Shown here piece by piece: positions 20,159 to 22,177 of a stretch of DNA of 64,000 nt; the stretch's first letter is position 1, and each line of letters opens with the position of its first letter. The notes below the pieces were generated by a model, which did no database searches, had not been told where the DNA came from, and saw nothing but the letters and a program-made list of their open reading frames with translations. Both the position numbers and the translations under genes were made by a program. Source of the stretch: Kushneria konosiri (GTDB lineage Bacteria > Pseudomonadota > Gammaproteobacteria > Pseudomonadales > Halomonadaceae); NCBI RefSeq assembly GCF_002155145.1, contig NZ_CP021323.1, forward strand, positions 1,116,001-1,180,000, given 5' to 3'.

Positions 20159-20551
20159 ATGACCATGGAACTCTATCTGCTGGGCTGGACGCTGGTGCTG
20201 GCCATCATCCAGATCATGCTGCCGGCGATGTATCGCAATCGCGAGACCGGCCTTGATTACAACGCCGGACCGCGCGACAAGGAAGGCCCTCCGATGGGCG
20301 TGGTGACCGGACGGCTGTTTCGGGCCCAGAAAAACCTGTTCGAGACCCTGCCACTGTTTATCGGCGCCATCCTGATCGCACATGTGGGTGGACAGGAAGG
20401 GGCGATGACGGCCTGGGGCGCCTGGCTCTATTTTCTGGCCCGTATCGTCTATGTTCCCCTCTACGCCATGGGCATTCCCTACGTGCGCTCGATGGTCTGG
20501 GGAATAAGCCTTCTGGGACTTGTACTGGTGATACTGCCGGTCATTTTCTAG
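20159..20551 (+). CDS. MAPEG family membrane protein
   Basis: A 130-residue integral membrane protein with four hydrophobic segments and the MAPEG signature region (GRLFRAQKNLFETLPLFIGAILIAH). The eukaryotic family includes microsomal glutathione transferases; bacterial members of this type are mostly uncharacterised. GGGAG lies six bases before the ATG at 20159. A stem-loop terminator follows at 20589. Confidence 0.88.
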   Translation: MTMELYLLGWTLVLAIIQIMLPAMYRNRETGLDYNAGPRDKEGPPMGVVTGRLFRAQKNLFETLPLFIGAILIAHVGGQEGAMTAWGAWLYFLARIVYVPLYAMGIPYVRSMVWGISLLGLVLVILPVIF

Positions 20552-20588
20552 TCCGCACCCTGACGGCTGTCACCACCGTTTTCAAAAG

Positions 20589-20620
20589 TGCCCGGTTCAG
20601 CGCCGGGCATTCCTTCTTTC
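20589..20620 (+). terminator. terminator of the MAPEG gene
   Basis: TGCCCGG and CCGGGCA pair around a seven-base loop, followed by the T-rich TTCCTTCTTTC. Confidence 0.65.
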
Positions 20621-20703
20621 AGGGAGGTGCCTTGATACGGCAATGATCAGGGCGTGGACATAAAAGGCATCCGCCAGGGAGTGTGGCGCGGATCAGCAGC
20701 CAT

Positions 20704-20738
20704 AAAAAATGCCGCTTCAGAGAAGCGGCATTTTATCA
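20704..20738 (-). terminator. strong terminator of the zinc-ribbon transcript (bidirectional)
   Basis: AAAATGCCGCTTC and GAAGCGGCATTTT pair around a three-base loop. The minus strand ends in six T, so it closes the transcript that contains the hairpin-array leader and the zinc-ribbon gene. Confidence 0.88.
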
Positions 20739-20761
20739 TGTTCTGCAGCAGCTACCGTGGA

Positions 20762-21013
20762 TCAGGCGGAGGCGCGCTGACCGATCTGCTGGTCATTGAT
20801 GGGGCGGCTTTCGCGGGCCATCATGAGCGTCAGGGTTCTGGACTTGTTCAGCGTCTGCATGGCAAAGGACGGAGAATGGAGATCATTCCAGTGACCTACC
20901 GTGTCCAGAAACTCGCCACACTCGGAGCAGGTGATCTCGTCCCACTCGTTGCAGGTATCCATCGGAGTATTCTGGTCGTGACCACAGCGCGTGCAGGAGA
21001 TGAAATGTGTCAT
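20762..21013 (-). CDS. small zinc-ribbon protein
   Basis: An 83-residue protein with two CxxC knuckles (SCTRCGHDQNTPMDTC and TCSECGEFLDTVGHW), a short zinc ribbon, and a polar tail ending MMARESRPINDQQIGQRASA. I do not recognise a named family. The start at 21013 has AAGGA nine bases upstream, itself within an AGGGAAGGAC stretch that could also bind CsrA. The gene is the only one in a transcript that begins near 21449, has a leader of about 430 bases made of GGA-loop hairpins, and ends at the terminator at 20704-20738. Confidence 0.8.
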   Translation of the reverse strand: MTHFISCTRCGHDQNTPMDTCNEWDEITCSECGEFLDTVGHWNDLHSPSFAMQTLNKSRTLTLMMARESRPINDQQIGQRASA

Positions 21014-21036
21014 GGCTTGAGTCCTTCCCTGGTCAT

Positions 21037-21413
21037 GTGACCGGCCTTCCTGGCCGGTAAGTGTTGCAATCCTTGCTCTGGCCATCCTGGCCGATCACTG
21101 CGGCAATCCCTGCCGTGGCGTTCCTCGCCATTCGGATCAACGTCCCTGTTGATCCCGGATCAACGTCCCTGTTGATCCCGGGTCAGCGTCCCTGTTGATC
21201 CCGGGTCAGCGTCCCTGTTGATCCCGGGTCAGCGTCCCTGTTGATCCCGGGTCAGCGTCCCTGTTGATCCCGGGTCAGCGTCCCTGTTGATCCCGGGTCA
21301 GCGTCCCTGTTGATCCCGGGTCAGCGTCCCTGTTGATCCCGGGTCAGCGTCCCTGTTGATCCCGGGTCAGCGTCCCTGTTGATCCCGGGTCAGCGTCCCT
21401 GCTGACCGTGTAA
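21037..21413 (-). ncRNA. candidate CsrA/RsmA-binding hairpin-array leader RNA
   Basis: On the minus strand this region is a chain of about 17 stem-loops, nearly all with GGA in the loop: five unlike stems with loops AGGAA, GGA, GGA, GGGAT and AGGAA (21039-21130) and 12 tandem units with hexaloop AGGGAC closed by C-G (21135-21410). The hexaloop and closing bases match the A-N-GGA-N rule for CsrA/RsmE sites, and the two perfect units give ACAGGGACGT. CsrB/CsrC/RsmZ sponges share this design. No terminator separates it from the zinc-ribbon gene, so it reads as an mRNA leader. The function is inference; in the nine central units the minus-strand stem has two A-C mismatches. Confidence 0.55.
21135..21410. 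repeat. 12 tandem copies of a 23-bp unit
   Basis: The unit is GGTCAGCGTCCCTGTTGATC plus CCG. The first two copies have GATCAAC in place of GGTCAGC, making perfect stems with GTTGATC. Nine middle copies are identical hybrids. The last copy (21388-21410) has GCTGACC and is again a perfect stem with GGTCAGC. The series looks like an expansion by unequal exchange between two differently paired hairpins. There are no unique spacers. Confidence 0.97.
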
Positions 21414-21437
21414 ACACACTCTGGCATAGCGCCGGGC

Positions 21438-21461
21438 AATGTACAAGGCTTGTACATTATA
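21438..21461 (-). promoter_or_regulatory. promoter with overlapping 21-bp palindromic operator
   Basis: AATGTACAAG and CTTGTACATT are perfect inverted arms around one central base (21438-21458). On the minus strand a consensus TATAAT (21461-21456) overlaps the upstream edge, so the start point would fall near the centre of the palindrome, the usual place for a repressor. No good -35 is spaced 17 bases away. A further half-site CTTGTACA is at 21566-21573. It controls the hairpin-array transcript. Confidence 0.65.
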
Positions 21462-21613
21462 ATTTTTTGTAACCGTCAATTCCGGGCCTGACAACACTTT
21501 TCAGCCTGCTTTTTGATGACATTTGAATGACGACAGGCCAAAACCTCACCCGGAATCAGCACAACTTGTACAACACTGTTTTTCAATTCCAATATTAATC
21601 GCAACTGACTGAA

Positions 21614-22177
21614 TCAAAAGGCAGGATCAGCCCTGCGTTGTCGTCGGAAAGTGTCGGGATAATCCAGTACCAGCCCCTGATCATCGACCTCCAGAGTCGC
21701 CGTGAAGCCGCTGCCGAGCCCTTCATAGCGCCAGCCATGTGACGACAGACGTGTATAGCGCTGCCGCATGAGGCCAATATCCAGCGACGGTACCGACAGC
21801 AGGACCACCGATAGTGCTGTTGATTCTCCCGGTTCAAGGCCCAGTCGTCGAATCGGCAACGTGTTGGTAAAGGGGGTCACGGCAATATCGATATCGATAC
21901 AGCCAGACAGAGCCGTCAAGGGCCCCTGCTTCTGACACCACCAACGGCCCTGCCCATCGCTTGAAAGCTGACAGGAGCGACCATCATCCAGCCGAGCCGA
22001 CAGCTGACGCATCCGCCACGCCGGGTCGAGCACCAGCTGATAGCTCAACTGATATCCCTGGCCGTCATGGCAGCCTTCCACCCGGCTTTCAGCCGTGATG
22101 CCATCATGAGCAATGGTCAGCTCAAGGCGCTCGCAGCCCTGATGATCCCAGCCGGTCCATGCCACCTCTCGCTGCAT
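21614..22177 (-). CDS. putative glycolipid-binding family protein
   Basis: A 187-residue protein matching the putative glycolipid-binding family (PA1994-like): it opens REVAWTGWDHQGCERLELTI and has the GQGYQLSYQLVLDPAWRMRQ strand series, the LPIRRLGLEPGES turn, and ends with the YEGLGSGFTATLEVDDQGLVLDYP motif. The structure-based name does not prove a function. It lies 27 bases downstream of cytidine deaminase on the same strand and is likely co-transcribed. Confidence 0.8.
   Translation of the reverse strand: MQREVAWTGWDHQGCERLELTIAHDGITAESRVEGCHDGQGYQLSYQLVLDPAWRMRQLSARLDDGRSCQLSSDGQGRWWCQKQGPLTALSGCIDIDIAVTPFTNTLPIRRLGLEPGESTALSVVLLSVPSLDIGLMRQRYTRLSSHGWRYEGLGSGFTATLEVDDQGLVLDYPDTFRRQRRADPAF

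Follow-up and report, generated by a model that had tools for sequence, protein, structure and literature searches.

Why should a gene for a small zinc-ribbon protein be preceded by a long series of hairpins? The question is raised by a locus of Kushneria konosiri within the 64-kb stretch of DNA that we analyzed (the window, positions 1116001–1180000 of a 3.58-Mb single-contig genome; coordinates below are those of the window unless stated otherwise). The ORF lies on the minus strand (20762–21013, including the stop codon; ORF list) and encodes 83 residues with the motif CxRCG ... CxECG. Its ATG at 21013 was chosen by comparison with relatives, the longer frame being 20762–21085. The protein has no Pfam match, its NCBIfam matches all fall below the cut-off, and its best PDB sequence match has an E-value of 0.04; the AlphaFold model (pLDDT 77.8, pTM 0.47) matched no PDB fold at an E-value below 0.001. 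The leader extends on the minus strand from near 21410–21440 (the start is approximate) to the ATG. A first-pass annotation, made from the sequence, had described about 17 hairpins here, as 12 tandem 23-bp units and five unlike stems with CsrA-type GGA loops, and had placed them in the leader of the zinc-ribbon gene. The total is 17, the coordinates fit, and the assignment to a minus-strand 5′ leader is supported.

Read on the minus strand, 12 AGGGACG loops succeed one another at intervals of 23 nt from 21400 down to 21147, and TRF delimits the 23-bp array at 21133–21405 (11.9 copies, 98% matches). The hexaloop AGGGAC closed by C-G is real. One unit has the arms GGTCAGC/GCTGACC (hairpin 1, 21388–21407; detector and folding), nine are hybrids with the arms GATCAAC/GCTGACC (21181–21384; TRF and folding), and two are of the hairpin-2 type, with GGATCAAC and GTTGATCC (GATCAAC/GTTGATC) on either side of AGGGAC (21134–21178; detector and folding). 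The five unlike stems come next. Three of them, TGGCG/CGCCA with the loop AGGAA (21116–21130), CGGCA/TGCCG with GGGAT (21101–21115) and GGCC/GGCC with AGGAT (21080–21092), were given by detector and folding; the fourth, GCAA/TTGC around a bare GGA (21066–21076), was seen in the sequence and has an accessibility of 0.73, and the fifth, ACCGGCC/GGCCGGT with AGGAA (21040–21058), likewise given by detector and folding, has one pair that changed on both sides within Kushneria. The Shine-Dalgarno region, ACCAGGGAAGGA (21022–21033, minus strand), is itself an A-N-GGA site (CAGGGA) whose GGA has an accessibility of 0.96, and it is identical across 6 aligned Kushneria leaders.

Folding of the leader left the loops open: their GGA was unpaired with a mean probability of 0.73–0.99 in the 12 units and 0.73–1.0 in the other five hairpins. 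A hybrid unit folded alone retained its AGGGAC loop at −10.1 kcal/mol, compared to −12.7 and −12.4 kcal/mol for its two parents, and the loop GGA of the hybrids was accessible at 0.73–0.84 in the fold of the whole leader. Our hairpin detector, which demands perfect 4-bp stems and loops of at least 4 nt, returns seven of the 17 window hairpins because the hybrids fail the perfect-stem rule and shorter loops are ignored; the remaining ones were counted from the sequence. When both strands of the 64-kb window were divided into 4256 segments of 180 nt (step 30), only six contained at least four detected GGA-loop hairpins, and all six overlap the array on the minus strand.

The same loops recur in relatives. 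We compared 34 relatives (32 named loci together with L003 and L009) from a search with two peptide patterns, which speaks to presence and not to absence from other genera; each leader was placed relative to the beginning of its tblastn match, which sometimes differs from the start codon. GGA-loop hairpins, between two and seven of them, are kept in 33 of the 34, across Kushneria, Salinicola and Larsenimonas and often on unlike stems; L066, whose match begins inside the protein, was counted as 0. The mean number detected per 180 nt was 3.91 in these leaders and 0.27 in 1008 flanking controls, while the opposite strand of the leaders gave 0.12. Three or more occurred in 29 of 34 leaders versus 2 of 1008 control windows, and no other of the 64 possible loop triplets is as common as GGA in the relatives' leaders. 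The 34 are not fully independent, since two Salinicola salarius strains and several same-genome paralogues are included. In several Salinicola genomes the zinc-ribbon gene is present in two to four copies, most of which have a GGA-hairpin leader of their own (same-genome groups L042/L064, L046/L059, L050/L054, L052/L053, L051/L057, L055/L066 and L056/L060/L063/L065).

Within the genus (9 other Kushneria genomes), the six nearest Kushneria (alignment A2) share the same seven hairpins, with hairpin 1 and hairpin 2 each single, and the detector finds six to seven in each (3-nt loops ignored). At greater distance the loops are kept and the stems differ, as in K. sinocarnis, K. aurantia and Salinicola: K. 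aurantia (G005) has at least five GGA-loop hairpins on other stems, and two further Kushneria (G001 and G007) have two to three, again on other stems. A GGA-loop hairpin falls at the Shine-Dalgarno region in 19 of the 34 relative rows, none of them Kushneria, where the detector found no hairpin at this position. Among Kushneria 97.1% of 239 cells are paired. Changes on both sides were found at 2 of 40 pairs, but 252 of 500 shuffles gave as many; the observed figure for cells paired was reached in 10 of 500 shuffles, and so was the covariation score. Variation within the genus was too small for covariation to be used as support; the case rests on the deeper comparison. There, and in the window itself, the first-pass proposal that CsrA-type loops are kept while stems change is supported, and the check in related genomes that it had suggested found the loops kept.

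What sets the window's leader apart is a local expansion. The repeated unit is exactly the 23-nt stretch (AGGGACGCTGACCCGGGATCAAC) that leads from the hairpin-1 loop to that of hairpin 2, and tandem copies were found solely in the window's genome (one assembly) among 19 searched. Comparison with the relatives suggests that the direction was from seven to 17 hairpins; the segment could have been multiplied by slippage or by unequal crossing-over, with the identical loop sequences of hairpins 1 and 2 as partners. A hybrid made by duplication of this segment takes its 5′ arm from hairpin 2 and its 3′ arm from hairpin 1. Because these arms differ by transitions, A faces C in the hybrids of one strand and G faces U in those of the other. 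Hairpin 2 itself is also doubled. The tandem units are a feature of this genome only and not a conserved core: in the comparison of copy number that had been proposed, related strains keep the loops, and the six nearest keep the seven hairpins, without tandem units.

Two rival explanations turn on this expansion. If the array were neutral DNA, a tandem or palindromic repeat (REP/BIME-like or mobile) with no RNA function, its near-exact units would resemble ordinary repeat expansion and their confinement to one genome would be expected. Yet nowhere else in the same genome does the unit match below E 0.99, and a dispersed repeat was rejected; moreover, three genera retain the hairpins, in unexpanded form, at this gene. 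We consider a neutral repeat very unlikely. No plasmid match to the unit was found. The second rival places the function on the plus strand, in an antisense or separate RNA whose hybrids would pair without mismatches. The plus strand does fold better (z of −11.9 versus −4.6 for the minus strand), and the first-pass annotation had counted the better pairing of the hybrids there against its own minus-strand reading. Duplication of the loop-to-loop segment explains the hybrids, however, unexpanded relatives have matched arms on both strands, and the GGA loops belong to the gene's strand. Plus-strand function was rejected, and we give it scarcely any credence.

The identity of the binding factor was approached through known RNAs. 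CsrA sites follow an A(N)GGA loop rule, and the sponge RNAs CsrB, CsrC and RsmX/Y/Z have in common with this leader a series of hairpins with such loops; CsrB is also near the array in size (17 sites, about 375 nt). When the kilobase around the array was compared with 4227 Rfam families by cmscan, CsrB had the lowest E-value (1.5e-4, minus strand), at 24.3 bits versus a gathering score of 71. RsmW gave a weak hit on the minus strand at E 2.1 (17.7 bits versus 52), and no Rfam model reached its gathering score at the array. The Infernal search that had been recommended bears out the CsrB likeness and the strand, and falls short of family membership. Among nine relative leader loci scanned, two (L006 and L041) had CsrB matches, below gathering, and seven had none. 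A long CsrB-like RNA, below the Rfam CsrB cut-off and with some twenty AGGA motifs by eye, was seen in another genome of the order (L032/L034, G043:C77:71053–71498). The genome contains a csrA gene, which the first-pass annotation had named as a check. Sequence cannot prove CsrA sites, and the hairpins might instead bind another GGA-reading factor or stabilize the mRNA. We judge this improbable, as the A(N)GGA loops, their regular spacing and the CsrB match all fit CsrA.

Is the leader, then, mainly a sponge? On this explanation it would chiefly sequester CsrA, and the small ORF would either be carried along as a passenger or serve the same response as a second output. In its favor are the series of sites conserved in relatives, 17 of them here at about the size of CsrB, the loops that stay constant while stems vary, and CsrB as the best Rfam match. 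The CsrB and RsmZ sponges, in contrast, are separate non-coding genes with their own terminators, whereas this leader is part of an mRNA with a downstream ORF and stays below the Rfam gathering scores, and a scan of 20550–21650 showed nothing terminator-like on the minus strand that would separate the array from the ORF. The ORF is conserved together with the leader, and the Shine-Dalgarno is itself a site.

A further argument comes from fdxA. In the window's genome a GGA-rich, RsmZ-like stretch lies between an enolase-like ORF and fdxA (L104, G000:C1 at about 2357390–2357570 in genome coordinates). It has a terminator-like end at about 2357541 and eight GGA in 320 nt, seven of them before the terminator. 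The seven other Kushneria fdxA loci returned have 7–10 A(N)GGA in 150 nt, and in G013 the family's best sub-threshold RsmZ match is also beside fdxA. L104 matches no Rfam family even when E-values up to 1 are allowed. The window's genome gave no convincing match to RF00166; by eye, four weak hits proved to be terminator or coding regions, L067 with a few GGA. The RF00166 cut-off was passed by only 1 of 58 genomes, and weak matches also arose in 4 of 14 control genomes, so that the label RsmZ-like is based on the density of GGA, the terminator and the location. With an RsmZ-like RNA beside fdxA and a csrA gene, the cell probably has CsrA-binding RNA other than the zinc-ribbon leader, and we dropped the idea that it replaces RsmZ in Kushneria. 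In Salinicola G012 and Larsenimonas G016, where no RsmZ-like GGA cluster was found downstream of fdxA (beyond fdxA these genomes were covered by strict RF00166 and RF00018 scans), the leader may have replaced RsmZ, a point in favor of the sponge. Taken together, a leader dedicated to sequestration appears possible but unlikely.

The sponge role as first proposed is weakened by the Shine-Dalgarno site and the relatives' hairpins in that region, which point equally to CsrA control of the gene itself. A CsrA-type site at the Shine-Dalgarno (CAGGGA) is the mark of a CsrA-regulated mRNA leader. The accessible text of PMC7652899 describes the leaders of E. coli pgaA (six CsrA sites) and cstA (up to four, one at the Shine-Dalgarno) as CsrA-repressed; the zinc-ribbon leader resembles them in having several CsrA-type sites that include the Shine-Dalgarno region, and differs in its more numerous and more regular hairpin sites and its tandem expansion. 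Nor is titration by an mRNA leader without precedent, contrary to the first-pass remark that such a sponge is unlike known ones. In the part of PMC4894983 available to us, the 5′ UTR sites of fimAICDHF (Salmonella) and flaA (Campylobacter) can titrate CsrA and lower its free level, as we propose here, and flaA is itself CsrA-repressed, as we propose for the zinc-ribbon gene. CsrA-titrating mRNA leaders are already known. According to the same portion of PMC4894983, the flaA leader probably binds one dimer, compared to the 7–17 regular hairpins here, and the optimal distance between two sites for one dimer is 18 nt, compared to 23 nt in the array. The present leader also belongs to another gene and has a TGTACA promoter, unlike fimAICDHF and flaA. 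A limited open-access search found no literature on this leader family, its promoter or its expansion, and no paper joining Kushneria with CsrA. The interpretation first given is partly supported: it is right in kind, as a CsrA-type leader, with the sponge a candidate role.

When would such a leader be made? The first-pass annotation had bracketed the region with a TATAAT (21456–21461, minus strand) and a terminator. A palindrome with a T-run is visible by eye after the ORF (20704–20734, minus strand; similar in form in relatives), although it is absent from the output of the terminator scan, which placed terminator-like sites at 20688–20672 after the ORF and at 21636–21621 upstream of the promoter region. 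A consensus scan found no sigma-70-type promoter in 20550–21650. The promoter is more likely to be a largely conserved TGTACA/TATGCC region, as judged across the genera, than the plain TATAAT. TGTACA-N5-TGTACA, a putative LitR/CarH-type operator, lies at 21440–21456 (minus strand) and occurs nowhere else in the genome in exact form. It is followed by TATGCC (21423–21428, minus strand), a possible −10 element largely conserved in relatives, whose distance from the preceding TTGTAC is 12 nt in the leaders of Kushneria and in many of those from Salinicola (variants TATGAC, TATGCA and TGTGCC). A second TTGTACAA (21566–21573, minus strand), about 116 bp upstream of the operator from start to start, is kept in the six nearest Kushneria at 105–116 bp.

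Of 35 upstream regions, each 320 nt long except that of the window (470 nt), 32 contain exact TGTACA, versus 3 of 244 control windows. Pairs spaced by 5, 12 or 23 with at most one mismatch were found in 25 of 35 versus 0 of 244, the spacings having been picked after viewing the data and the PmlR2 paper. The available text of PMC9758184 gives TGTACA-N12-TGTACA as the consensus of PplR1 and PmlR2, regulators of LitR/CarH light regulons; the leader shares with these the TGTACA repeats at the promoter and differs in its N5 spacing, the N12 form being present in L053, L054 and L057. Upstream of two of the shorter zinc-ribbon paralogues, a second family (TCHRCGS-type; L018–L021 and L015), TGTACA-N5-TGTACA was also observed (L019 and L020). 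Genome-wide, operator-like sites with up to two mismatches were not enriched (31 versus 45 in the reversed control), and a regulon by pattern search was abandoned as not above control.

The window's genome has a MerR-type LitR-like gene that adjoins a photolyase gene. Its product contains a MerR_1 domain and matches CarH over residues 13–282, below the cut-off (115 versus 400 bits). CarH sites follow an 11-bp repeat rule. All 14 genomes that gave a zinc-ribbon match have a LitR-like gene, but so do 23 of the 44 that gave none. TGTACA-N12-CGTACA stands upstream of the window genome's own LitR-like gene, and a TGTACA pair precedes this gene in 18 of 30 genomes (the window's included) versus 2 of 180 controls; the pair is absent from six of the seven closest Kushneria rows. 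A light-type cluster in L086 (3947–9124) comprises an epimerase with DUF1731, an FAD amine oxidoreductase, a LitR-like MerR gene and a photolyase, with TGTACA-N12-CGTACA ahead of the MerR gene and a two-mismatch TGTACA pair between epimerase and oxidoreductase. The TGTACA repeats suggest a LitR/CarH-type light regulator, and their enrichment together with the LitR-like gene makes light control of the leader promoter a supported guess. Among the open-access matches listed, no title linked LitR and CsrA through light, one being an unrelated Vibrio LitR.

Our preferred reading, held with moderate confidence, is that of a CsrA-controlled, repeat-expanded leader that can also titrate CsrA, from a promoter probably repressed by a LitR/CarH-type regulator. 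CsrA dimers would bind the A(N)GGA loops in series, and CsrA at the Shine-Dalgarno and neighboring loops would block translation of the zinc-ribbon ORF. A MerR regulator of the LitR/CarH type at the TGTACA repeats would probably repress the promoter, and light would open it. Since many dimers could be held per transcript, free CsrA would fall when the promoter is on; we prefer repression of the gene, with titration as a consequence of the number of sites. A stronger version, in which the transcript is a light-switched decoy mRNA, released from a LitR-type repressor in light, soaking up CsrA with its hairpins and keeping the ORF repressed until CsrA is exhausted, we regard as doubtful. If it is true, a photoreceptor would be coupled to the Csr/Rsm network, with a capacity tuned between strains by the copy number of a 23-bp segment. 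If the TGTACA promoter is LitR-controlled, light sensing would be linked to the Csr system. In Kushneria, Salinicola and Larsenimonas, one gene's natural leader family spans two to seven detected predicted hairpins and up to 17 in the expanded allele, and this natural range makes it possible to ask how the number of sites sets repression and titration.
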